Part shown: positions 1 through 12,207 of the stretch, piece after piece
How the letters are laid out: each line of letters opens with the position of its first letter
How positions within the stretch are numbered: the first letter of the stretch is position 1
NCBI GenBank assembly: GCA_002695025.1
Contig: NZNV01000001.1
Coordinates: 62,001 to 126,000 of the forward strand
Length of the DNA: 64,000 nt
Reading direction: 5' to 3'
DNA from: Owenweeksia sp.
GTDB lineage: Bacteria > Bacteroidota > Bacteroidia > Flavobacteriales > Schleiferiaceae
Made by a program: the position numbers and the translations under genes
Notes under the pieces: model-generated
Database searches by the model: none
Told to the model about the DNA's origin: nothing
The model's input: the letters and a program-made list of their open reading frames with translations, nothing else

Positions 1-2151
1 AGCCTTGAAGGTCAGATTAAAGAACTCTATAAAATCAGACATCCGGAAGATCGTTTACGCGAAAAAGACCTGGATGCTGCCTATACAAACTGGCTTAAGG
101 ATAATGATCCTTTTACGTATGGAGTTTGGGTATACTATCCGTGGAATAATGCGCTCGTTCACCTGGTAAACGAAGATGAATTTATTGAGTTAAGGACTTC
201 GCGTAATAAATATAAAATTACCGATGACGAACAGCAGATTCTCTCCCAAAAAATTGTTGGGGTCATAGGTTTGTCCGTTGGTCAATCAGCTGCGGTTACC
301 ATGGCCATTGAACGCATTTTTGGCACTGTACGCATTGCGGATTTTGACACCCTGGAGCTTACTAATCTTAACCGTATACGCAGGGGCGTGGATGCGCTCG
401 GGCAGCCCAAGACCACTATGGTGGCCAGGGAGATTGCGGAGATAGATCCTTTCCTGAAAGTGGAAGTTTACGATGAAGGGATTAACGAAGATAATATTGA
501 CCGTTTTCTTACCGAAGGAGGCCAACTGGATGCACTCATAGAGGAGTGTGATGGTTTGGATATTAAGGTGCTGGCACGTTTAAAGGCCAGGGACTATGGT
601 ATTCCGGTTATCATGGATACCAGTGACCGCGGTCTGCTGGACATTGAGCGTTTTGACCTGGAGCCGGAGCGTCCCATCTTTCATGGATTGGTACCGGAAA
701 GTAAACTGAAAAACCTCAAAGGCCTTACTACGGAGGAAAAGATCCCCTACATCCTGGATATGGTAAATGCGGAAGGCTTTTCTAAACGTTTTAAAGCTTC
801 CATGCTGGAGGTAGACCAAAGCCTTACTACCTGGCCACAATTATCTACTTCTGTAACGATGGGTGGGGCCATGGCTGCAGATCTTTGCAGGCGTGTTCTC
901 CTGGACCAGCTGCATGTTTCCGGTCGTTTTTATATAGATATAGAAGAGCTTATTTCGGATGAACCTGCTGATAAGGTAAAAAATCATGAAAAGTTACGGC
1001 CGGTTCCTTTGGATTTCAGTGAATTGGAGAAAGATTTTGAAAAATATGCGTTAAAACCTGATAATTATGTAAAACTATCAGAAAAAGCCGTCAAAGATTT
1101 GGTAGAGCATGCTACCTTTGCGCCTTCAGGAGGGAATGTCCAGCCATGGAAGTGGTACTACAGGGAAGGAGTATTGTATTTATTCCATGACAGGTCAAAG
1201 TCATATTCATTTCTTGACTACGCTGACCGTGGTTCCATGATTGCGTTGGGAGCTGCCTCTGAAAACATTGTGCAACGGGCCATACAATTGCAATTACATA
1301 CCAACATCCAAACATTTACCGGCAATTATAAGCCGCTGGTAGCAGCATTTACTTTTGAAGACCGCCAGGGCCGGCCTCCCGGCTCCTATGAGAATCTGGC
1401 TTTTATGATTAAAAAGCGTTTGACCAATCGTAAAATGGGAGATAGCAGCCAGCGCATTGATCCGCAGCATATGCAGGAAATCACGGAGCTGGTAGAAGCC
1501 AATGAAGGATATCACTTACACACCGTACAAGATGAAAATGCTATCCGCTCGCTGAGTGAGGTAATTGCCAGGATGGAACGATTGCGCATGCTGGACGAAT
1601 GGGGTCATGAGGACTTTATAAACGAAGCCCGGTGGACCCCGGCACAAGCCAAAGAAACCAGGGATGGTATTGACCTGGCCACGCTGGATCTCAGCCAATC
1701 GGATATTGCCGGTATGCGGCTGCTGAGAGATTCGGACGCCATTGGTTACCTCAGGGAGTGGGACAAGGGAATGGGCTTCCTTACCATGACCCGTAAGGCT
1801 CCGGTTAATTCATCAGCCTTATGTTTGCTTACAGCAGATGAACATTCAAAAAATGCCGTATTTAATGGCGGGCGAATTTTAGAAAGAGCCTGGCTTTACA
1901 TAAATTCGAAGCAGATTGCTATGCAACCGGTTTCCCCCTCTACATTTATGTTTTACAGGTTGGTTATGGACGATCCCGCTTTAAAGGGAAAAACCAGGGC
2001 AGAGATGAAGGAACTAAACAAGGAATTCAAGCAAATCCTGAACCTGCCGGAACAGTCCAATGACTTGTTCCTGTTTCGATTGTTCTATGCTGAAGATCCG
2101 GAGGTTAAGTCGTACCGTTACCCGCTTGAAGATGTATTGTTGATTAACTAG
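1..2151 (+). CDS. E1-like ThiF domain / nitroreductase fusion protein (5' end outside window)
   Basis: The reading frame is open from the first base, so the true start lies upstream and 716 codons are visible. Residues about 80-300 look like an E1/ThiF/MoeB-type adenylating Rossmann domain: VGVIGLSVGQSAA is the nucleotide loop, followed by ADFDTLELTNLNR and GQPKTT, the usual Asp, Asn-Arg and Lys positions. I see no CxxC zinc pair and no obvious catalytic cysteine. Residues about 360-660 resemble an FMN nitroreductase, with FAPSGGNVQPW as the flavin-binding motif. The architecture matches the Rv1355c-type family, whose substrate is unknown to me. The next gene starts 12 bases downstream, and three signalling genes follow in the same direction. 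An internal TTG at 271 is not the start, because it falls inside the nucleotide-binding loop. Confidence 0.8.
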   Translation, partial: SLEGQIKELYKIRHPEDRLREKDLDAAYTNWLKDNDPFTYGVWVYYPWNNALVHLVNEDEFIELRTSRNKYKITDDEQQILSQKIVGVIGLSVGQSAAVTMAIERIFGTVRIADFDTLELTNLNRIRRGVDALGQPKTTMVAREIAEIDPFLKVEVYDEGINEDNIDRFLTEGGQLDALIEECDGLDIKVLARLKARDYGIPVIMDTSDRGLLDIERFDLEPERPIFHGLVPESKLKNLKGLTTEEKIPYILDMVNAEGFSKRFKASMLEVDQSLTTWPQLSTSVTMGGAMAADLCRRVLLDQLHVSGRFYIDIEELISDEPADKVKNHEKLRPVPLDFSELEKDFEKYALKPDNYVKLSEKAVKDLVEHATFAPSGGNVQPWKWYYREGVLYLFHDRSKSYSFLDYADRGSMIALGAASENIVQRAIQLQLHTNIQTFTGNYKPLVAAFTFEDRQGRPPGSYENLAFMIKKRLTNRKMGDSSQRIDPQHMQEITELVEANEGYHLHTVQDENAIRSLSEVIARMERLRMLDEWGHEDFINEARWTPAQAKETRDGIDLATLDLSQSDIAGMRLLRDSDAIGYLREWDKGMGFLTMTRKAPVNSSALCLLTADEHSKNAVFNGGRILERAWLYINSKQIAMQPVSPSTFMFYRLVMDDPALKGKTRAEMKELNKEFKQILNLPEQSNDLFLFRLFYAEDPEVKSYRYPLEDVLLIN

Positions 2152-2163
2152 AAACCAAAGAAT

Positions 2164-2886
2164 TTGCTAAAGATAAGGGCATACAGGGCAATTGATGACA
2201 TTGGGTCGTGCGAGAAATATGCCATCGGACATGAAAACGTACTGAAAAGCTACGGTATTACCAAAGTAACCTCGGCTAACTACGAGTGGTTTTACAACCC
2301 TGAAGTATACGTAATTGCGGTGGAGGATGGTGATGAAGTGCTGGGGGGTGCCCGCATTCATGGCTCCGGAGGAAACCAGCCTCTGCCAATAGAAGAGGCC
2401 ATAGGGTACATGGATCCCAGTATTTATGAACTGGTGCGTAACTTTAAAAAGGAAAAAACCGGTGAATTATGTGGCCTCTGGAATTCCAGGGCTATTGCCG
2501 GTAAAGGTCTCAGTGTGATCCTTACCAAGGCCTGCGTGGCTAAAGTGGGGGTTGCCATTGCCAACGTTTTGGAACTGCGCAGTTTGTTTGTATTATGTGC
2601 GCCTTATACCGTTAAAATGGTAGAAGAGGTGGGCTTTGAAATAATTACTTCCCTAGGTGAAGAAGGTACGTTCCCTTACCCCAAGGATGATATGATTGCC
2701 ACGGCTTTAATGATACGGGATGTGGCGGGCCTTACCAAAGCGGATAGAGATAAGCGTGACGATATTTTTAACTTAAGACATATTCCGCGCCAGGTGCGGA
2801 AAGAACAAGGAACCCAGGGATTGCTGGACATTGAATACGATTTATATATACCACACCTTGATGAAGAAAAAGAAGGTTTTTCTTAA
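2164..2886 (+). CDS. GNAT-like N-acyltransferase
   Basis: This 240-residue protein probably starts at TTG, 12 bases after the E1/nitroreductase gene. The N-terminal half (KIRAYRAIDD, then VYVIAVEDGDEVLGGARIH) looks like the first strands of a GNAT fold. ELCGLWNSRAIAGKGLS is where the acyl-CoA-binding loop would be expected, and MVEEVGFEIITSLGEEG resembles the last GNAT strand. The substrate is unknown. The long C-terminal tail after residue 190 is not part of a minimal GNAT domain. Its last 26 bases overlap the start of the sensor kinase, which implies translational coupling. Its position between an E1-like enzyme and two-component genes suggests a shared pathway, but that is inference from context only. 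Confidence 0.65.
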   Translation: MLKIRAYRAIDDIGSCEKYAIGHENVLKSYGITKVTSANYEWFYNPEVYVIAVEDGDEVLGGARIHGSGGNQPLPIEEAIGYMDPSIYELVRNFKKEKTGELCGLWNSRAIAGKGLSVILTKACVAKVGVAIANVLELRSLFVLCAPYTVKMVEEVGFEIITSLGEEGTFPYPKDDMIATALMIRDVAGLTKADRDKRDDIFNLRHIPRQVRKEQGTQGLLDIEYDLYIPHLDEEKEGFS

Positions 2887-5023
2887 ACTATTCTTACTAT
2901 TGACACTGGTCTCGGGATCATTGTCCACCACCTATGGCCAGCTGATAGTAGGGCCCCAGAAGAAATCCAATATCGGTAAAAACCTGATGCTGCTGAATGA
3001 CAGCAGCTGTTCGGGTCTCCAACAAATAATCTCCGCACAATTTACGCCTGAAGAAGATAATGTACCTCTGTATGAAGGTTCAGAAGGTTGCCGGTGGTTC
3101 AGGTTGCCACTGGTGAATCACTCCGGTGAAGATCAATTGGTGCTGGAAATTTACAACCCCACCATTGACTTTGTGGAGTTGCATTATCGCGGACCCAATG
3201 GCGAATGGATCGTAAAGCGCCAGGGACGTAGTATACCAACGCCCCATTGGGATTTTAAACTTCCCAATCTCCTGTTTGAACTGGATATTGAAGACAGTGC
3301 CAGCCAGGATATTTACTTGCGGGTTCAAAATCCAGAGCAGTTCAGCCTACCCGTTAACATCGGGGTTAAGGATGAAATAATGATTGCCAGTTTTGGAGAT
3401 CAGGTGCTTTTTGGTCTGTATGCCGGTATCATGCTGGCTCTGTTCTTTTACAATATCTTCATCTATTTTTCAGTACGGGACCGCAGCTATATTTTTTACG
3501 TGGCTCATACCCTTTTTGTATTGCTTACCCAGGCTTCAGCTTTTGGTTATGCGGCTTTATACCTGTGGCCTAATAGCCCGTGGTTGGCTGAGCGTAGCTT
3601 TGTACTCTTTACCTGTTTAGTGAGCCTGGCCGGTATCCGTTTCTTTTTTGAATTCCTGAAAGTCCGGGATTTCCTGCCCCGTTTTTACCTGTTCTTCCGG
3701 GGGCTGGAATTTATTTATCTGGGCATTATACTCATTGAGATCCTCAACCTGAGGAACCTGGCCTACCAGATACTTTTTCCCCTCCAGGGGCTGATCGTCA
3801 TCAGCATTTTTACAGCTTCACTGATGATTTTGCGCAGAGGATACCAGCCAGCCAAGATCTACGTGCTAAGCTGGAGCGTACTGTTGATAGGCGTTCTGAT
3901 ATTTACGCTCAAGGATTTTAGTATACTGCCCTATAACTACCTTACCGTACACACTATTCAGATAGGTTCCGCGCTGGAAGCTATTCTGCTGTCCTTCGCA
4001 CTGGCGGATAAGATCAACATCCTGAAGAGGGAGAAAGAAGAATCGCAGATGGAATCCTTGCGGGTTTCACAGGAAAATGAGAAGATCATACGGGAACAAA
4101 ATGTGGTTTTGGAACAAAGAGTACTGGAACGCACTATGGAATTGCAGGAAGCCAATGAAGAGTTGCAGGTAACCCTGGCCAATCTTAAAGATACCCAGAC
4201 CCAACTGGTTGATGCGGAAAAAATGGCCTCCCTCGGTCAGCTTACAGCCGGTATAGCCCATGAGATCAACAACCCCATCAATTTTGTGACTTCCAATATT
4301 GCTCCTTTGCGCAGAGACCTCCTGGAAATCTATGAAATTGTGGATACCTATGCCTCTGTACCGTTAGATAACCCCCGTGAAGCTTTGGAAAAAGCGCATG
4401 AACTTCAGGAGGATTATGACTTCGAATATCTGAAGGAGGAAATCGAATCCCTCGTGGATGGAATTTCAGATGGGGCGACCCGCACATCGGAAATTGTAAA
4501 AGGTTTACGTACCTTTAGTCGTCTTGATGAAGATGACATCAAGCAAATTAGTGTTGAAGAAGGCTTGAACAGCACGCTGGTTTTGCTGCGTAATAAAACC
4601 AAGGATCTGATAGATATTGAAACGGATTATGAGCCTGGACTTCCTGAAATTGAGTGTTTTCCAGGAAAATTGAACCAGGTTTTCATGAATATTTTGTCCA
4701 ACGGCATTTATGCGGTTAACGCCAAACGATACGAAGAGGGAGAGCAGCCTAAGCTGACCATCAAAACCCGTAAAACCGAAGGCAGCCGGGTTAGTGTGTA
4801 TCTGGGCGATAACGGTATCGGAATGGATGAAGCCACTAAGAAAAAGATATTTGAACCCTTTTTTACCACTAAAGACGTTGGAGAAGGAACCGGTTTGGGA
4901 ATGTCCATAGTTTTCAAGATTATTGAAAAACACAACGGAACAATAGCCGTAAACAGCGAGCCCGGTAAGGGAACTGAATTTATAATAACTTTGCCAATGA
5001 GCCAGCCAAATTTATCGGAATGA
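2861..5023 (+). CDS. 7TMR-DISM sensor histidine kinase
   Basis: The ATG at 2861 is chosen because it gives a clean signal peptide (MKKKKVFLKLFLLLTLVSG... ending TTYGQ); an upstream in-frame TTG at 2831 would bury it. The 720 residues show an extracellular sensory domain (about 40-180, DISMED2-like), seven hydrophobic segments (about 190-390, 7TMR-DISM), a coiled coil (about 390-460), a HisKA domain with the phospho-acceptor His467 in AGIAHEINNP, and an HATPase domain with DNGIGMDEATKKKIFEPFFTT and GTGLGMS. The 7TMR-DISM extracellular domain is often a carbohydrate-binding-like fold, but the ligand here is unknown. The gene overlaps the GNAT-like gene by 26 bases and the next gene by 4 (ATGA), so it sits in a coupled operon. 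Likely partners are the two receivers downstream. Confidence 0.9.
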   Translation: MKKKKVFLKLFLLLTLVSGSLSTTYGQLIVGPQKKSNIGKNLMLLNDSSCSGLQQIISAQFTPEEDNVPLYEGSEGCRWFRLPLVNHSGEDQLVLEIYNPTIDFVELHYRGPNGEWIVKRQGRSIPTPHWDFKLPNLLFELDIEDSASQDIYLRVQNPEQFSLPVNIGVKDEIMIASFGDQVLFGLYAGIMLALFFYNIFIYFSVRDRSYIFYVAHTLFVLLTQASAFGYAALYLWPNSPWLAERSFVLFTCLVSLAGIRFFFEFLKVRDFLPRFYLFFRGLEFIYLGIILIEILNLRNLAYQILFPLQGLIVISIFTASLMILRRGYQPAKIYVLSWSVLLIGVLIFTLKDFSILPYNYLTVHTIQIGSALEAILLSFALADKINILKREKEESQMESLRVSQENEKIIREQNVVLEQRVLERTMELQEANEELQVTLANLKDTQTQLVDAEKMASLGQLTAGIAHEINNPINFVTSNIAPLRRDLLEIYEIVDTYASVPLDNPREALEKAHELQEDYDFEYLKEEIESLVDGISDGATRTSEIVKGLRTFSRLDEDDIKQISVEEGLNSTLVLLRNKTKDLIDIETDYEPGLPEIECFPGKLNQVFMNILSNGIYAVNAKRYEEGEQPKLTIKTRKTEGSRVSVYLGDNGIGMDEATKKKIFEPFFTTKDVGEGTGLGMSIVFKIIEKHNGTIAVNSEPGKGTEFIITLPMSQPNLSE

Positions 5024-6120
5024 CCTCTACTCAATCAAAAAAGCACATCAAAGTGTTGTACCTTGATGACGAGGACAACAACTTAAGGTCGTTTAAAGCG
5101 GCTTTCAGGAGGGAATATGACATTTATACCGCTAACACTTCCGAGCAGGCCTACGAGGTGATTAAATCGGTAAGACCTCAGGTAATATTTTCCGACCAGC
5201 GTATGCCGGTAACCACCGGGGTTGATTTTTTCAATGCCGTACGGCAAATTTTTCCTGACCCGGTACGTATTCTCATAACCGGTTATACCGATATCAATGA
5301 CATTATAGAGGCTATCAACAAGGGCCATATCTACCGCTACATTACCAAACCCTGGAATGAGCATGAGATTCGCGTGGCTATTGACAATGCCTATGATCTT
5401 TACCTTACCCGCAGAAAGCTGGAGAATAAGGTAGAAGAACTGGAGAAGATAAACCATGAGCTCAGCCGCTTCATTTATAGTGCTTCTCATGATCTCAGGG
5501 CTCCGCTGGCCACTTCACTGGGAGTTATTCGTGTAGCTAACCATGAAGTAAATGATCCCCTTGCCAAGGATTACTTCGAGAAGATCGAAAAGAGTGTGAA
5601 AAAACTGGACGTTTTTGTACACCATATTATTGACTACTACAAGAACGCGAAGAAGGAGGAAGATATTCACGAGATCAAATTTGAAGATGTACTGGAAGAA
5701 GTTATAGAAACCGTTAGAAGCGGTTTGGGAACTTCGGATCCCCAAATAGAATGGGAGGTACACCAGGAAAATAAATTTATGGGTGATGAATTCCGTTTGA
5801 GGATCATACTCAGTCACCTGATCAGTAACGCTATTAAATTTAAGAGGAACGATCAGGAAGAAGCCAAAGTAGATATTATGATCAAGTCGGATCTGGAAAT
5901 TGCCCTTCTTGAAGTGAGGGATGCCGGTATGGGAATTTTGGAAGAACATATCCATAAGGTATTCCATATGTTCTTTAAGTCCGGTGATGAACGCACAGGT
6001 TCCGGTATTGGTTTGTATATAGTAAAGGAAGCACTAAATAAAATGGGTGGTTCCATATCGGTAAGATCCAAGCCTCATGAAGGCACCATTTTCACCATAA
6101 AAATACCTAACAAGCTATGA
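5020..6120 (+). CDS. Receiver domain-histidine kinase, soluble
   Basis: A 366-residue cytosolic protein. An N-terminal receiver (about 10-125) has the acidic pair in LYLDDEDN, the phospho-acceptor Asp59 in FSDQRMP, a conserved Thr in ITGYTD and Lys110 in ITKPW. A coiled linker (about 130-150) leads to a HisKA domain with His157 in SASHDLRAP, and then an HATPase domain with DAGMGI and GSGIGLYIVKEAL. No membrane segment or signal peptide is seen. It overlaps the upstream kinase by ATGA and the downstream receiver by ATGA. Domain order across the three genes is His, Asp-His, Asp, so a phosphorelay from the membrane sensor through this protein to the last receiver is plausible but not shown. Confidence 0.88.
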   Translation: MTSTQSKKHIKVLYLDDEDNNLRSFKAAFRREYDIYTANTSEQAYEVIKSVRPQVIFSDQRMPVTTGVDFFNAVRQIFPDPVRILITGYTDINDIIEAINKGHIYRYITKPWNEHEIRVAIDNAYDLYLTRRKLENKVEELEKINHELSRFIYSASHDLRAPLATSLGVIRVANHEVNDPLAKDYFEKIEKSVKKLDVFVHHIIDYYKNAKKEEDIHEIKFEDVLEEVIETVRSGLGTSDPQIEWEVHQENKFMGDEFRLRIILSHLISNAIKFKRNDQEEAKVDIMIKSDLEIALLEVRDAGMGILEEHIHKVFHMFFKSGDERTGSGIGLYIVKEALNKMGGSISVRSKPHEGTIFTIKIPNKL

Positions 6121-6521
6121 GTGATGCGATGTTAGGTATAGTCATGATCATTGATGATAACCCTACGGACAGGTTTGTGCACCGGAAGTTGTTGGAGATC
6201 CATAAGATAGCCGACAATATTATAGAGTTTGAATCCGGGAAAGCTGCTCTTCAACATTTAAAAGCGGTGGAAACAGAATCCGAACTACCGGATGTAATCC
6301 TCCTGGATATTATGATGCCGGAAATGGATGGTTTTGATTTCCTGGTGCATTTTGCTAACCTCAAGGATCGCTTTGATAAAGTGCCGGATATTTATATGCT
6401 CAGCTCTACGGATGATGAGAAAGATATACAGCGGGTTCGTAACAATCCGCTGGTGAGGAAAATGCTTCGTAAACCCTTTTCCCCGGACTCTTTCAAAAAG
6501 CTCCTTAGTACTCGGACTTAA
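6117..6521 (+). CDS. Single-domain response regulator
   Basis: A 134-residue stand-alone receiver with no output domain. The acidic pair is in MIIDDNP, the phospho-acceptor is Asp64 in [12 protein letters not shown], and the conserved lysine is Lys119 in LRKPFSPD. It overlaps the receiver-kinase gene by ATGA, so it is very likely made from the same message. Lone receivers of this kind act through protein-protein contact or as the end or an intermediate of a phosphorelay, so the output is not visible here. Its last 17 bases overlap the 3' end of the convergent prfC gene. Confidence 0.88.
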
Positions 6522-8088
6522 GGTGAAATTTAAGCTTATCGAACTTCTCACGGGCCATATTCAGGCTGAATGAAGAATCCGCCAGGAAAACCAGCCGGTC
6601 AAACTTATCCCTGGCCAGGTAACGTGATTTAAGGCGGCTGAACTCAGCCAGTTGCTCATCATCATGGGATTCTACCCAACAAGCCTTATAGGCCTGGTAA
6701 TTCTCATAGGTACACTTAGCCCCGTATTCATGCTCCAGGCGGTATTGGATCACCTCATACTGTAGCGCGCCCACCGTACCAATAATCTTTCGGCCGTTAT
6801 TTTCAAGGGTAAAAAGCTGGGCCACACCTTCATCCATCAACTGGTCAATTCCCTTATTCAGCTGTTTGGCTTTCATAGGGTCTGCATTATTGATAAAGCG
6901 AAAATGTTCCGGTGAAAAGCTGGGAATACCTTTAAATTCCAATTCTTCACCTGAAGTAAGGGTATCGCCAATCCTGAAGTTGCCGGTATCATGCAGGCCC
7001 ACAATATCTCCTGGAAAGGCTTCATCAACCACACTTTTTTTGGACGCCATAAAGGCGGTGGGGTTGCTGAATTTAAGGTCCTTACCCAAGCGTACGTGCT
7101 TATAGGAAGTATTGCGTTCAAACTTTCCGGAAACGATCTTCAAAAACGCCAGGCGATCACGGTGCTTGGGATCCATATTGGCGTGGATCTTAAACACAAA
7201 GCCTGAAAATACTTTTTCAGCCGGATCTACCGTTCTCTGCTCCGAGGTTTTCGGAAGGGGAGGGGGAGCAATTTCCACGAAGCAATTGAGAAGCTCCTGA
7301 ACCCCGAAGTTGTTGAGGGCGCTACCAAAGAACACCGGTGAAAGCTTACCTTCCAGGTAGATTTGCCGGTCAAATTCGGGATAAACCCCATTTACAAGCT
7401 CAATATCTTCCCGCAGGTCATTAGCATAACTTTCCCCTACGCTTTTATCAAGGGTAGGATCTTCCAGGCTGTCTATTTTGATGCTCCTGGCAATCTTCTG
7501 CTTTTTCTGTTCGGTATAGAGCTGCAGGTTTTTTTCCCAGATATTGTATACACCCTTAAAATCCTGTCCCATCCCTATGGGCCAGCTCAAAGGACAAACG
7601 GTAAGCCCGAGTTTCTGCTCGATCTCATCCAGCAGATCATACGCGTCTTTACCTTCACGGTCCAGTTTGTTGATGAACACAATAACAGGTGTATCGCGCA
7701 TGCGACAGACTTCTACCAGCTTTTCGGTTTGAGCCTCCACACCCTTGGCCACATCAATAACTACAATAACACTGTCAACCGCAGTTAGTGTGCGGTAGGT
7801 GTCTTCTGCAAAATCCTGGTGACCCGGGGTGTCCAGGATATTGATCTTTTTCTCGCGGTACTCAAAACCCATTACAGAAGTAGCCACGGAAATACCCCTC
7901 TGTCTTTCAATTTCCATGAAATCGGAGGTGGCTCCTTTCTTGATCTTATTGGACTTTACGGCCCCGGCTTCCTGTATGGCGCCACCGTATAAAAGCAGCT
8001 TTTCCGTAAGGGTCGTCTTCCCGGCATCAGGGTGTGAGATGATCCCAAACGTACGCCTGCGTTGTATTTCTTCCTTTATCGTGCTCAT
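6505..8088 (-). CDS. prfC: Peptide chain release factor 3
   Basis: A 527-residue translational GTPase that recycles RF1/RF2 from the ribosome after peptide release. The G1 motif is [12 protein letters not shown] near the N terminus, G3 is DTPGHQDF and G4 is FINKLDRE. The C-terminal part ([17 protein letters not shown]) is typical of RF3 and separates it from EF-G. The start is set at the ATG at 8088 ([18 protein letters not shown]): that gives the usual RF3 length, and a promoter-like element lies just upstream. A longer frame to 8172 would add 28 residues that do not look like RF3. The gene is convergent with the lone receiver gene and divergent from the MerR gene. Confidence 0.95.
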
Positions 8089-8097
8089 AGCGGCCGG

Positions 8098-8129
8098 CAA
8101 ATGTACTAACTTGTACAGGGTATAGCGAA
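8098..8129 (-). promoter_or_regulatory. Putative prfC promoter
   Basis: Read on the minus strand, TACATTTG (8105-8098) fits the Bacteroidota -7 consensus TAnnTTTG. TTCG (8129-8126) lies 20 bases upstream where TTTG is expected. The -7 box ends 9 bases before the chosen prfC start, so the leader would be very short. One mismatch in the upstream box; the call is by eye. Confidence 0.42.
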
Positions 8130-8250
8130 TTTTTTTACCTTTGTTGAAGATTTTCACCAGTTCATTGAACAAAAATTTTTAAGCTTCGTTTTAATCTAGT
8201 GGTAAAGGGTAAAAACTCCTTCATCAAAGAGTGGATCGATGTAATGTTGA

Positions 8251-9141
8251 ATGGAATCTAAATACTCAATAAAAGACTTAGAACAGCTATCCGGGATTAA
8301 GGCTCACACCTTACGTGCCTGGGAGCAGCGTTATAACCTTATTGAACCGCTCCGCACGGACACCAATATTCGTTATTATATAGATGAACACCTCAAAAAG
8401 GTGTTGAATATTGCCGTTTTAGTAAAGAGCGGTATGCGCATAAGCAAGGTGGCTGAACTTTCTTCTGACGAGTTGCGGACTGCGGTTATAGACGCAGGGC
8501 GTTACCAGGGTAATTATGACAGCCAGATCAATGCGATGAAGATCTCCATGATGGAGTTTGATGAGTATCTATTTGAATCCATCTTCAATAAATGTCTCAT
8601 CCAGTTCGGTACTGAAGAAACCTTAACCCGTATTGTTGGTGCCTTTATCCAACAGGTAGGGTTGCTTTGGCAAGCGGGTGCCATTACCATTAGCAATGAG
8701 CATTTTATCTCCAACCTCATCAAGCAAAAGCTCTTTTCGATTATAGACCAAACCATGCTGCCCAACCCTAAGCAGGGGAAAAGTTATGTATTGTATCTTC
8801 CTGCTGATGAATTGCACGAACTGGGGCTGCTTTATCTGTATTACTTTCTTAAAAAACAGGGTCACAGGGTAATTTATCTTGGTCAGTCCGTACCTCTTGA
8901 ATACGTGAAAGAGGTTGCAGAGCGTACCCATATTGATCAGTTTATTACCATTTTCACCACCCGTCCTCACTTTGAGGAATTCGACATCTATTTTGACCGG
9001 ATGGGTGAAATGTTTGACCCTGCCAATTACAAGTTCTTTGTAACTGGCCTGCAGGTTAATCAATATCAGGGTACCAAGGTGCCTGGTTATGTTGAGATGT
9101 GCCCTGACATTGAGACGCTCAAGCGAAACTTCGTTCAATAA
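8251..9141 (+). CDS. MerR-type regulator with CarH-like cobalamin-binding domain
   Basis: A 296-residue protein. Residues 1-70 are a MerR winged helix (YSIKDLEQLSGIKAHTLRAW, then IRYYIDEHLKKVLNI). Residues about 85-165 match the helical cap domain of CarH-type B12 photoreceptors, with Trp140, nine residues, then Glu150-His151: the W-x9-EH signature. Residues about 178-290 are a Rossmann-like cobalamin domain in which His189 of DELHELG lies where CarH has its lower axial histidine. The later GG motif of B12 domains is replaced by TG (FFVTGLQ). CarH proteins bind DNA in the dark with adenosylcobalamin and release it in light, typically controlling carotenoid genes. The gene lies directly upstream of an ECF factor and crtI/crtB, which fits that role. 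B12 binding is inferred. Confidence 0.85.
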   Translation: MESKYSIKDLEQLSGIKAHTLRAWEQRYNLIEPLRTDTNIRYYIDEHLKKVLNIAVLVKSGMRISKVAELSSDELRTAVIDAGRYQGNYDSQINAMKISMMEFDEYLFESIFNKCLIQFGTEETLTRIVGAFIQQVGLLWQAGAITISNEHFISNLIKQKLFSIIDQTMLPNPKQGKSYVLYLPADELHELGLLYLYYFLKKQGHRVIYLGQSVPLEYVKEVAERTHIDQFITIFTTRPHFEEFDIYFDRMGEMFDPANYKFFVTGLQVNQYQGTKVPGYVEMCPDIETLKRNFVQ

Positions 9142-9258
9142 TTCTCCTTTCTTGTTTAGGTGACGAACCTTTCCTGTTCTGCTAAATTCAGTAGGTTCTA
9201 TTTTTAAGACATTGATTTTCAATGATTTTAGAACGGCTTGGTTTATTCGCTATAGTAA

Positions 9259-9352
9259 AATCTTTACATAAAAGTTTGTGCATCTGGAATTCTTGTTTAA
9301 CTTTGGAGTAGATTTACTTAAACAAATAACAAACAACATCTAATCTTTACAT
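9259..9352 (+). repeat. Pair of 11-bp direct repeats flanking the sigma-factor promoter
   Basis: AATCTTTACAT occurs identically at 9259-9269 and at 9342-9352, on either side of the promoter at 9275-9305. The second copy abuts the sigma gene start codon. Each contains TTTACA, which fits the TnTACA core I recall for CarH operators. They are candidate binding sites for the adjacent MerR protein. CarH operators are normally tandem, whereas these are 83 bases apart, so the assignment is tentative. Confidence 0.35.
9275..9305 (+). promoter_or_regulatory. Consensus Bacteroidota promoter of the sigma-crt operon
   Basis: TTTG at 9275-9278, a 19-base spacer, then TAACTTTG at 9298-9305. This matches the Bacteroidota primary-sigma consensus TTTG-N(17-23)-TAnnTTTG exactly. 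Transcription would begin a few bases after 9305, giving a leader of roughly 40 bases before the sigma-factor ATG at 9354. The strong match suggests high intrinsic activity held in check by a repressor, consistent with the neighbouring MerR gene. Confidence 0.65.
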
Positions 9353-9353
9353 T

Positions 9354-9857
9354 ATGTCAAAATCAGAATTCGGAAGTCTGATACTGTCGCACCAGAGCTT
9401 CCTCCAACAACTGGCCATGAAATTGACAAAGAGTTTTGAAGACTCCAATGACCTCATGCAGGAAACTTACTTCAAAGCTTTAAAGAACAAGGATAAGTTT
9501 CAGGAAGGTACCAACATCAAAGGATGGTTATATACCATTATGAAGAATACCTTCATCAACGCTTATCGCAAAAAGAAAAACCAAAACACCTTTGTTGATG
9601 AAACCGATAATAAATATTTCATCAATATGGGAGAAACTGAGAAATCGGTTCAGACCGATGCCGTTGTGGATAGGGAGTATATGATGAAACAGATCAACTC
9701 AGTGGAAAAAACCTATGTAGAAACCTTCATGATGTACTACAATGGGTATAAATATGAAGAAATCGCTGAGATCCTGGAAATTCCTCTAGGCACGGTTAAA
9801 AGTCGTATCTTCCTGGCAAGGAGGAAAATGATGGATAAGCTTAAAGATTATCGCTAA
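9354..9857 (+). CDS. ECF-type RNA polymerase sigma factor
   Basis: A 167-residue ECF sigma factor. Region 2 spans about 10-85 (SNDLMQETYFKALKNKDKF, then IKGWLYTIMKNTFINAYRK). Region 4 spans about 110-165, with the helix-turn-helix KYEEIAEILEIPLGTVKSRI. No anti-sigma gene lies next to it; the following gene is crtI, 20 bases downstream. Its position between a CarH-like MerR gene and carotenoid genes resembles other light-response circuits in which a repressor controls a sigma factor that activates further genes. Its target promoters are not identified here. Confidence 0.9.
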   Translation: MSKSEFGSLILSHQSFLQQLAMKLTKSFEDSNDLMQETYFKALKNKDKFQEGTNIKGWLYTIMKNTFINAYRKKKNQNTFVDETDNKYFINMGETEKSVQTDAVVDREYMMKQINSVEKTYVETFMMYYNGYKYEEIAEILEIPLGTVKSRIFLARRKMMDKLKDYR

Positions 9858-9877
9858 TAGTATTGCAGCGTTAAAAT

Positions 9878-11374
9878 ATGAAGAAAAAGGTCATCGTAAT
9901 TGGATCAGGTTTCGCTGGCCTTTCAGCTGCAACTTCATTAGCCGATAAAGGTTTTTCTGTACAATTACTGGAAAAAAATGACCAGCCCGGAGGACGGGCC
10001 AGGTCATTTTTTGATGAGGGGTATACCTTTGATATGGGACCCAGCTGGTACTGGATGCCCGATGTTTTTGAATCCTATTTCAATCGCTTCGGGAAATCAG
10101 TCTCTGATTATTATGAACTCATCCGCCTGGATCCTTCCTACAGGGTTTATTACGGTGAAAATGATTACCTGGATATTCCGGCTTCGTTGAAGGAGTTATA
10201 TGCGATTTTTGAGAGTATTGAAAAGGGTAGTAGTGAAAAACTACGGAGATTCCTGTCAGACTCAGCCTATAAATACGAGATAGGGATTCGCGACCTGGTG
10301 TATAAACCCGGCCGGAGCCTTCTTGAATTTGCCGATGCCCGGATCCTCAAAGGGTTCTTTCAACTGGACCTTTTGAAATCCATGCGTACCTATGTACACA
10401 GTAATTTCAAAAATCCCCGTATCCGCCAGTTAATGGAGTTTCCCATTCTGTTTTTAGGCGGAACCCCAGCCAATACTCCCGCCCTTTATAGTCTCATGAA
10501 TTATGCGGATATGGCTTTGGGTACGTGGTATCCGAAAGGAGGCATGTACAAGATCGTGGAAGCTATGGTTTCGCTGGCGGAGGAAAAGGGAGTGGAAATT
10601 ATTACCAATGCCGAAGTACATGGTATAGAGGTGAATGCTTCCAAAATGGCGGAGCGGGTGATTACTAGCAAAGGGGATTATGAAGCCGATATTATTGTGG
10701 CAGGGGCTGATTATCACCATGTGGAACAACATCTCCTGGAGCCTGCCCATCGCAGATATTCCGAAAAGTATTGGGAAAACCGGAAAATGGCTCCTTCCTG
10801 TCTTATATTTTATATGGGTGTCCGCAAGAAACTGGAGGGCATCAAACACCATAATCTCTTTTTTGACAAGGATTTTGATCAACATGCCAGGGATATCTAT
10901 GATCATCCGCAATGGCCTGAAAATCCACTGTTTTATGTTTCAGCTACTTCAAAAACCGAAACCGAAACCGCACCAGCCGGATGTGAGAATTTGTTTGTAT
11001 TGATGCCGGTTGCTCCCGGTCTCGATGATGACCACTTTGTACGGGAAAAATATTACGACCGGATCATGAACCGCATGGAGATCCTTACAAACCAGAGCAT
11101 TATTGATTTCGTAGATTATAGAAAATCATACGCACACTCCGATTTTATCTCGGACTATAATGCCTTCAAAGGTAACGCCTATGGTTTAGCCAATACACTA
11201 AAACAGACTGCAATACTGAAACCCTCCCTCAAAAGCTCAAAGGTGCACAACCTTTATTATACCGGGCAGTTAACCGTTCCGGGCCCGGGCGTGCCTCCTG
11301 CACTTATATCAGGACAGGTAGTAGCCGGAGAAGTGGAGAAGGATTTTGCAGGCCCTAACAAAATTGCGATATGA
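9878..11374 (+). CDS. crtI: Phytoene desaturase (CrtI family)
   Basis: A 498-residue FAD-dependent oxidoreductase that introduces double bases into phytoene on the way to neurosporene or lycopene. The N terminus has the dinucleotide-binding motif VIGSGFAGLSAATSLADKG and the following LLEKNDQPGGRARSF. The C terminus carries the CrtI signature TGQLTVPGPGVPPALISGQ. Length and both motifs are normal for the family. It lies 20 bases after the ECF gene and overlaps crtB by ATGA, so it is in the same operon. A related desaturase or isomerase of the family cannot be excluded, but the adjacent phytoene synthase makes CrtI by far the best reading. Confidence 0.93.
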   Translation: MKKKVIVIGSGFAGLSAATSLADKGFSVQLLEKNDQPGGRARSFFDEGYTFDMGPSWYWMPDVFESYFNRFGKSVSDYYELIRLDPSYRVYYGENDYLDIPASLKELYAIFESIEKGSSEKLRRFLSDSAYKYEIGIRDLVYKPGRSLLEFADARILKGFFQLDLLKSMRTYVHSNFKNPRIRQLMEFPILFLGGTPANTPALYSLMNYADMALGTWYPKGGMYKIVEAMVSLAEEKGVEIITNAEVHGIEVNASKMAERVITSKGDYEADIIVAGADYHHVEQHLLEPAHRRYSEKYWENRKMAPSCLIFYMGVRKKLEGIKHHNLFFDKDFDQHARDIYDHPQWPENPLFYVSATSKTETETAPAGCENLFVLMPVAPGLDDDHFVREKYYDRIMNRMEILTNQSIIDFVDYRKSYAHSDFISDYNAFKGNAYGLANTLKQTAILKPSLKSSKVHNLYYTGQLTVPGPGVPPALISGQVVAGEVEKDFAGPNKIAI

Positions 11375-12207
11375 AAGCTCTCTTCGACAAAGTATCCCAG
11401 CGCACCAGTAAAATGGTAACAACCAGTTACAGTACCTCCTTTTCCCTGGGAATATTCTTCCTGGACCGCACCTTGCATCAGCATATTTATGCTATCTATG
11501 GTTTTGTACGTTTTGCGGATGAGGTGGTGGATACCTTCCACGAACATGATAAAAAATGGCTTCTTGACAATTTCAGGGAGCAAACCTATGATGCCATTGA
11601 ACGGGGCATCAGTCTCAACCCGGTACTGAACTCATTCCAGGCTACGGTGAATGAGTTTAATATTGACCGGAACCTTATTGATACTTTCCTGAAGAGTATG
11701 GAAATGGATATCAATCCACGTGAATACGATTCCAGGAGCTACGATGAATACATACTCGGTTCAGCCGAAGTAGTGGGTCTTATGTGTCTCAAGGTCTTTT
11801 GTTACGGAGATCAGAAGCAATATGAAGCCCTGAGTCCTGAAGCTATGAAGCTAGGCTCTGCCTTTCAAAAGATCAACTTTTTAAGAGATCTTAATGCAGA
11901 TTATTACCACCTGGGCAGGATCTATTTTCCGGGAGTTGAGATTGATGAGTTCAATGATACGGTCAAATCGGAAATAGAGGCTGATATTGAAAAGGATTTC
12001 CGCAAGGGGTATGAAGGCATTCTTAAACTGCCTAAAAAGGCTCGCTTTGGAGTGTACATTGCGTATGTTTATTACTATGCTCTGTTTCAAAAGATTAAAG
12101 CTACACCCGCCCAGGTAATACTGCAAAAACGGGTGAGAATTCCCAATTCCAATAAGTACGGTTTGCTGTTAAGTTCCTATTTTAGGCACAGTTTTAACCT
12201 CTTATAA
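11371..12207 (+). CDS. crtB: Phytoene synthase
   Basis: A 278-residue squalene/phytoene synthase-family enzyme that condenses two geranylgeranyl diphosphates into phytoene. The two aspartate-rich substrate motifs are visible: FADEVVDTFHEHD near residue 50 and FLRDLNADYYHLGRIYFP near 170. The N-terminal TTSYSTSFSLGIFFL is typical of bacterial CrtB. It overlaps crtI by ATGA, implying coupled translation. The IPP isomerase gene follows 13 bases downstream. No lycopene cyclase (crtY) or carotene hydroxylase (crtZ), which often follow crtB in related bacteria, is seen in the window. Confidence 0.93.
   Translation: MKALFDKVSQRTSKMVTTSYSTSFSLGIFFLDRTLHQHIYAIYGFVRFADEVVDTFHEHDKKWLLDNFREQTYDAIERGISLNPVLNSFQATVNEFNIDRNLIDTFLKSMEMDINPREYDSRSYDEYILGSAEVVGLMCLKVFCYGDQKQYEALSPEAMKLGSAFQKINFLRDLNADYYHLGRIYFPGVEIDEFNDTVKSEIEADIEKDFRKGYEGILKLPKKARFGVYIAYVYYYALFQKIKATPAQVILQKRVRIPNSNKYGLLLSSYFRHSFNLL

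Follow-up and report, generated by a model that had tools for sequence, protein, structure and literature searches.

N-acyl oxazolones are produced in bacteria by a ThiF-oxidase fusion acting with an N-acyltransferase (PMC12856293, PMC10404671). In TrzAS (Rv1356c-Rv1355c), the N-acyl tryptazolone pathway of mycobacteria and rhodococci, the fusion protein Rv1355c, or TrzS, is a ThiF cyclase/flavin oxidase that converts N-acyl-tryptophan to an N-acyl oxazolone (PMC12856293); TyzACB gives tyrazolones, and OxzAB of Pseudoalteromonas rubra both tyrazolones and phenazolones (PMC10404671). Here we analyse a five-gene block at the start of a 64,000-nucleotide stretch of DNA from Owenweeksia sp. (contig NZNV01000001.1, positions 62,001 to 126,000; the whole stretch is hereafter the window), where a TrzS-like gene and an acyltransferase gene are followed by a 7TMR-DISM sensor histidine kinase and two further phosphorelay genes.

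The block resembles CqsA/CqsS and LqsA/LqsS/LqsR in that a small-molecule synthase is encoded beside its membrane sensor kinase, although CqsA and LqsA differ in being pyridoxal-phosphate enzymes that make hydroxyketones. Its order of enzyme, membrane kinase, receiver-kinase and lone receiver is also that of phcB-phcS-phcR-phcQ of Ralstonia, whose last two proteins likewise have no DNA-binding domain (PMC8578825) and whose signal is made by the methyltransferase PhcB (PMC8578825, PMC11960443). The likeness is one of order and domains, and the Phc system differs in having a hydroxy-fatty-acid methyl ester as its signal and no N-acyltransferase or ThiF. We propose, with a probability of roughly 0.55, that the Owenweeksia block is a self-contained, autoinducer-like synthase-receptor circuit employing carboxylate-capped N-acyl amino acids, here oxazolones; on this reading it would work like a phc-type quorum-sensing operon.

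Layout and enzymes of the block

The features of the block are listed by window position, with genomes and loci elsewhere in the text given by our G and L numbers.

1..2151, + strand: gene 1, TrzS-like protein (ThiF cyclase fused to flavin-dependent oxidase; NF005901)
214..927, + strand: ThiF/E1-like adenylation domain, residues 126-363 (Pfam PF00899, 61.9 bits)
550..552, + strand: Asp238, adenylation-motif Asp in the motif EECD (alignment with relatives)
1099..1935, + strand: nitroreductase-superfamily flavin-dependent oxidase domain, residues 421-699 (NF047509)
2164..2886, + strand: gene 2, predicted FeeM/LuxI-fold N-acyltransferase in the TrzA-like position, TTG start (AlphaFold2 model)
2861..5023, + strand: gene 3, 7TMR-DISM sensor histidine kinase, 720 aa, ATG at 2861 (DISMED2, 7TMR-DISM_7TM, HisKA, HATPase_c)
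3371..4042, + strand: kinase seven-transmembrane (7TM) region, residues 171-394, the region tracking tailoring chemistry
4259..4261, + strand: His467, sensor-kinase phospho-acceptor (conserved in relatives)
5020..6120, + strand: gene 4, soluble receiver-histidine kinase (receiver-HisKA-HATPase; Asp59, His157; Pfam)
6117..6521, + strand: gene 5, lone receiver (Asp64; Pfam)
L002:6289-6750, - strand, outside the window: sixth block member, a divergent 153-aa lone receiver directly upstream

The initial annotation had described five coupled genes with gaps and overlaps of +12, -26, -4 and -4 bases, and this layout proved exact. Profile search (Pfam, NF models) recovered the domains it had assigned to the five proteins, and the phospho-residues lie where it had placed them, with conservation among aligned relatives of 104/104 for His467, 64/64 for Asp59, 63/64 for His157 and 42/42 for Asp64; Asp54 of the upstream divergent receiver is conserved in 100/100. 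The window edge truncates gene 1, whose true start lies 162 bases upstream (L002:6839-9151, 770 aa).

Judged by sequence, gene 1 is a full-length Rv1355c/TrzS-family protein, scoring 754.4 bits against NF005901 (cut-off 476) over residues 18-768. Its flavin domain falls just below the Pfam nitroreductase cut-off (21.9 against 23.5 bits) and matches NF047509, the Acg family FMN oxidoreductase model, at E 3e-35 (122 bits, under the family cut-off of 199); the protein is 72% identical to its counterpart in a same-genus relative (G002). Asp238 is invariant across the aligned fusion-type, ThiF-only and six actinobacterial TrzS rows, and is probably equivalent to D217 mutated in M. smegmatis TrzS, a sequence outside the alignment. 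A protein-modification role for the E1-like domain was set aside, given 754 bits in the Rv1355c/TrzS model as against at most 57 in ThiF models and still lower scores in the MoeB and UbaA models. Because gene 1 belongs to an oxazolone-forming family, its function is most likely small-molecule synthesis and not protein modification. The earlier suggestions of an unknown modification or flavin chemistry, and of an E1-like/nitroreductase enzyme and acyltransferase with no described partner, therefore fall away: the chemistry of this family is described, as is its pairing with an N-acyltransferase (PMC12856293, PMC10404671).

For gene 2 the Pfam GNAT match is sub-threshold (15.9 bits, cut-off 20.7) and a sequence search gave no significant solved relative (best E 0.14), so a structure model was made. 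The AlphaFold2 model (11-row alignment, mean pLDDT 83.4) retrieved FeeM (2g0b), an N-acyl amino acid synthase, as the first Foldseek match at E 3.5e-6, tied with the acyl-homoserine-lactone synthase EsaI. FeeM also led in VIA-align, with Z 15.7 over 177 residues; LasI came next (14.6 over 185 residues), and TofI (14.2) and BjaI (13.8) lower down. The generic GNATs ElaA and 1xeb score nearly as high (Z 14.4 over 145 residues, where VIA-align rows within 1 count as tied), and hence the fold alone is no proof of the reaction. We predict an N-acyl amino acid synthase-like fold of the FeeM/LuxI kind, LuxI-type synthases and FeeM being the best structural matches. The block differs from LuxI systems in that the partner receptor would be a kinase, not a LuxR protein, and in that none of 30 acyltransferase members matches Pfam Autoind_synth at E 0.01, Acetyltransf_1 being the only match (in 2 members). 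As a side observation, locus L068 of G437 carries tandem acyltransferase genes (10526-11224 and 11281-11976) between the TrzS-like gene and the kinase.

The two genes thus parallel TrzAS in having a full-length family member, a predicted N-acyl-amino-acid-synthase fold and an acyltransferase gene adjoining the ThiF-oxidase gene; they differ from it in that the acyltransferase sequence is only marginally similar. When 397 actinobacterial open reading frames were searched with the gene 2 profile, the three best matches were all TrzS neighbours, from two Rhodococcus plasmids and one Nocardia, although the matches are weak (E 0.0009 and 0.003, for two near-identical proteins, and 0.067). A TrzA-like neighbour was matched in this way in 3 of 6 actinobacterial TrzS loci and none was found in the other three, while the window acyltransferase itself, searched against plasmids, had no match. 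A Streptomyces plasmid ThiF-GNAT pair (L146) was dropped as a candidate relative, its GNAT missing the gene 2 profile (hhalign probability 0.1%). From the family of gene 1, together with the fold and weak profile matches of gene 2, the product of the module is most likely an N-acyl amino acid oxazolone, and the enzymology of the block is a new member of the known oxazolone pathways.

A further difference from TrzAS is the dedicated DISM kinase and relay found here, where cyclic-di-GMP genes lie beside trzAS (PMC12856293). On two Rhodococcus plasmids (L145, L150) a GGDEF-domain gene adjoins the TrzA-like gene, overlapping its 3' end, so actinobacterial TrzS loci also lie beside signalling genes.

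Conservation of the block in the class and phylum

Gene 1 was searched in 60 genomes (its own and relatives) and in 395 genomes of the class, and the same 395 were searched with the kinase and with the gene 2 profile, at cut-offs of our choosing (1e-60 for ThiF, 1e-100 for the kinase and 1e-8 for the acyltransferase). Carriers number 69 for ThiF, 73 for the kinase and 76 for the acyltransferase; acyltransferase and kinase occur together in 72 genomes, with about 14 expected by chance, and ThiF and kinase in 65. As the Fisher p-values for co-occurrence ignore relatedness, taxonomic spread weighs more. Of the 91 ThiF places, 90 were retrieved and their genes assigned with profiles derived from the block; the one left out, G152, has acyltransferase and kinase directly beside ThiF in the genome searches. 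The kinase is adjacent in 77/90 loci, spanning 21 families and 44 genera, and the acyltransferase is present in 83/90 and adjacent in 81/90. The receiver-kinase is found in 67/90, a last receiver like gene 5 in 32/90, and an upstream-type receiver in 82/90, lying upstream on the opposite strand in 76.

Thirteen ThiF loci have no adjacent kinase. Five of these end at a contig edge (G016, G110, G423, G146 and G185); for the last three, acyltransferase and kinase are found again on a different contig (L140, L139 and L138, respectively). Six have a kinase homologue at another place in the genome. In five of them (G006, G012, G024, G032 and the second G030 locus) a receiver-kinase stands beside the unlinked kinase in four cases (L156, L157, L158, L160), and in the fifth (L159) the contig breaks off. 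The sixth, G269, carries acyltransferase, kinase and relay complete at a second locus (L137). The remaining two have no full-length kinase. When 395 further genomes, sampled phylum-wide, were searched with the acyltransferase profile, 13 gave a match. One of these, G532, falls outside the class, and there too a fragment of ThiF and the kinase lie next to the acyltransferase. The biosynthetic and sensory modules are accordingly not usually apart in relatives, and their coupling, first suggested from the window alone, is real.

Tailoring enzymes and the kinase 7TM region

The 90 ThiF loci comprise 57 ThiF-oxidase fusions and 33 with ThiF but no oxidase homologue in the fetched stretch (e.g. L011, L012, L051, L052, L054); the product of the latter might be a saturated oxazolone or something else. 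At one locus (L059:7055-8887, - strand) ThiF is fused to a C-terminal region of about 240 residues without a Pfam match, in the position that the oxidase takes elsewhere. Eight of the 73 kinase genomes are without ThiF, and seven of these keep acyltransferase and kinase with a methyltransferase between them, which is a class I S-adenosylmethionine-dependent enzyme in six (G070, G192, G243, G383, G403, G434) and an ICMT/PEMT-type membrane enzyme in G334. Two more methyltransferase loci were found: that of G159 is class I, with a kinase truncated where the contig ends, and that of G775, where the search for ThiF covered the locus itself, is ICMT-type. This gives nine genomes in all with a methyltransferase in ThiF's place, a kind of enzyme to which PhcB of Ralstonia also belongs. 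The tailoring types (ThiF-oxidase, ThiF alone, class I or ICMT-type methyltransferase) are thus interchanged as acyltransferase and kinase are kept. The substrate of ICMT proper is a lipidated cysteine, whose carboxylate it methylates; the ICMT-type enzyme here would cap that of an N-acylated amino acid. Cyclising and esterifying would on this view both lead to a neutral lipid-like molecule.

Each of 90 kinases was assigned a tailoring type (50 fusion, 32 ThiF-only, 8 methyltransferase) and a family (27 labels), and for trees built from single regions we counted the minimum number of label changes. The kinase tree had 105 rows, 15 of which were dropped from the label counts for having no family label, tailoring label or acyltransferase in the locus, or for being too short; L004 and L005, duplicates of L040 and L042, were excluded from the trees. 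With 150 resampled columns (24 draws) the tailoring label changes 14.8 times on the 7TM tree, as against 24.0 for DISMED2, 22.5 for the kinase domain and 22.4 for the acyltransferase. With all columns the 7TM count is 12, compared with 21 for each of these three and 18 for the three joined. Labels simulated on four other trees (1596-1811 retained draws per tree) never reached 12 or fewer changes on the 7TM tree, the lowest values being 13-15. IQ-TREE applied to 57 rows, one per genus and tailoring type, gave 14 changes for the 7TM region, 21 for the kinase domain and 19 for the acyltransferase.

At the residue level, of the eight kinase columns with the strongest association to the methyltransferase type, seven fall in the 7TM region. 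The most associated 7TM residues are 341, 345, 349, 309, 193, 369 and 227, the first three spaced as on one helix face. Tracking of product type by the 7TM region should be expected of a product receptor and not of a general stress sensor. A contiguous recombining segment as the cause of the sensor-chemistry match is disfavoured, on trees of short regions, because the intervening acyltransferase and DISMED2 track tailoring type less well than the 7TM region.

The candidate circuit and rival explanations

In the circuit that we propose, the FeeM/LuxI-fold GNAT would join an acyl chain to an amino acid, as its fold and gene context suggest. The ThiF domain would then adenylate the free carboxylate and cyclise the N-acyl amino acid to an oxazol-5-one, which the flavin domain would desaturate, both steps being assigned through family membership; this chemistry is demonstrated only for actinobacterial TrzS and TyzBC (PMC12856293, PMC10404671). 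Where ThiF is missing in relatives, the methyltransferase would instead convert the carboxylate into a methyl ester. The product would be neutral and acyl-homoserine-lactone-like, a likeness already noted for oxazolones by the TrzAS authors (PMC12856293), and the DISM kinase may sense it through its 7TM region in the membrane. Phosphate would pass from His467 to Asp59 of the receiver-kinase and/or to the divergent lone receiver, and from His157 of the receiver-kinase to Asp64 of the last receiver.

Output would depend on partners whose genes lie elsewhere or, for some relatives, on a response regulator close by. By Pfam, no protein of the window's block has an output domain. In some lineages the receiver-kinase has a PAS domain and a HisKA or HisKA_3 core. 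Response regulators with a LuxR-type DNA-binding domain lie nearby in L077, L136 and L139 (and in L116, on the opposite strand), and ones with an OmpR-type domain in L047 and L050, which points to transcription as the probable output in those lineages. Separately, the upstream lone receiver is tandem-duplicated at L062:10440-11437 and L067:10427-11369. A Burkholderia pyrrocinia plasmid kinase/HD-domain pair, picked up by kinase and receiver similarity, was rejected as a general kinase relative with no synthase annotated nearby.

Several observations weigh against this circuit. Ligand and product are predictions, as any density dependence would be, and the window's block encodes no output regulator. 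The window acyltransferase is only marginally similar to TrzA-like proteins (hhalign probability 9.8%). ThiF occurs without a full-length kinase in G248 (no match) and G263 (kinase-core matches only), and the kinase without the acyltransferase in G382. The kinase regions were compared after the fact, and the 7TM effect shows best where methyltransferase is set against ThiF. When fusions are set against all other types, the tree of the remaining regions joined needs 13 changes and the 7TM tree 12, and with IQ-TREE the 7TM region needs 13 and the acyltransferase 14. Between fusion and ThiF-only types, the acyltransferase has 8 columns with z>6 (mean z 1.76) and the 7TM region 5 (1.37). For the methyltransferase type with all columns, DISMED2 equals the 7TM region at 2 changes each, a caveat that applies also to the dismissal of a recombining segment. 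With labels simulated on the acyltransferase tree, a kinase-minus-7TM gap as large as that observed arose in 0.2% of draws. Family labels change 39 times on the 7TM tree, 40 on DISMED2, 32 on the kinase domain and 36 on the acyltransferase; since they run the opposite way to the tailoring labels, the 7TM tree is not merely a better tree.

The strongest rival, which we consider unlikely but well short of negligible, is that the relay senses environmental or envelope stress and switches on biosynthesis, the oxazolone being a protective or antagonistic end product and not a signal. Regulators beside biosynthetic genes are common, and the kinase bears an extracellular DISMED2 domain. Oxazolone production is antibiotic-induced in proteobacteria and the tyz locus is tied to oxidative stress (PMC12856293). 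However, variation with the tailoring enzyme, as seen in the 7TM region, would not be expected of a stress sensor, and the kinase is kept with the acyltransferase in the genome even when unlinked.

A second rival, less probable again, holds that the product is a membrane-active lipid and that the kinase reads the membrane state it creates, for feedback control and not communication. It gains from the clearest association lying in the 7TM region and not the extracellular domain, but a relay resembling that of phc and the broad joint inheritance point beyond homeostasis, and this rival differs from the proposed circuit mainly in ecology. Finally, an accidental neighbourhood, in which unrelated modules share an operon in one lineage, could appeal to the two ThiF genomes in which no full-length kinase of this type was found and to actinobacterial TrzS plasmid loci without such a kinase annotated nearby, but it is refuted as far as the class is concerned by 72 shared genomes among 76 and 73 carriers, adjacency in 77/90 loci of 21 families and co-occurrence when unlinked, and we give it almost no weight.

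The initial annotation had left open whether the sensory pathway controls the enzymes or is controlled by them; the data favour, without proving, a kinase that senses the product. It had also known of no function for the combination, which does not stand for the enzymes but does for the sensor relay: the open-access literature searched, outside which most subscription papers lie, yielded no description of the block or of an oxazolone-sensing kinase. As to a broader claim, namely a Bacteroidota-wide, undescribed autoinducer system combining a LuxI/FeeM-fold synthase, a swappable capping enzyme (oxazolone/methyl ester), a co-evolved DISM-kinase 7TM region and a phosphorelay, we regard the odds as about even.

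Beyond the block, a convergent peptide chain release factor 3 gene (window 6505-8172, - strand; RF3_C, 150.8 bits) shares 17 bases with the end of the last receiver gene. A MerR-type regulator with a B12-binding domain opens the following gene run (window 8251-12207, + strand), whose later genes we take to be a sigma factor, phytoene desaturase and phytoene synthase; together these may form a carotenoid cluster under light control.

The physiological role of N-acyl oxazolones is a major unresolved question according to the 2025 TrzAS paper (PMC12856293). Because the pathway comes here with its own sensor, the block permits a direct genetic test of that role, and it is also present, in ThiF-only form, in named Chitinophaga strains (L011, L012). 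In Bacteroidota it connects a synthase of predicted LuxI/FeeM fold with a candidate receptor kinase, and the exchange of cyclase for methyltransferase in nature is an experiment for mapping the 7TMR-DISM ligand site, with residues 341, 345 and 349 as first targets. If the proposed circuit is true, oxazolones would gain a physiological role and the ligand class of this 7TMR-DISM kinase group would be defined; the Bacteroidota block turns the suggestion of the TrzAS authors into a testable circuit.

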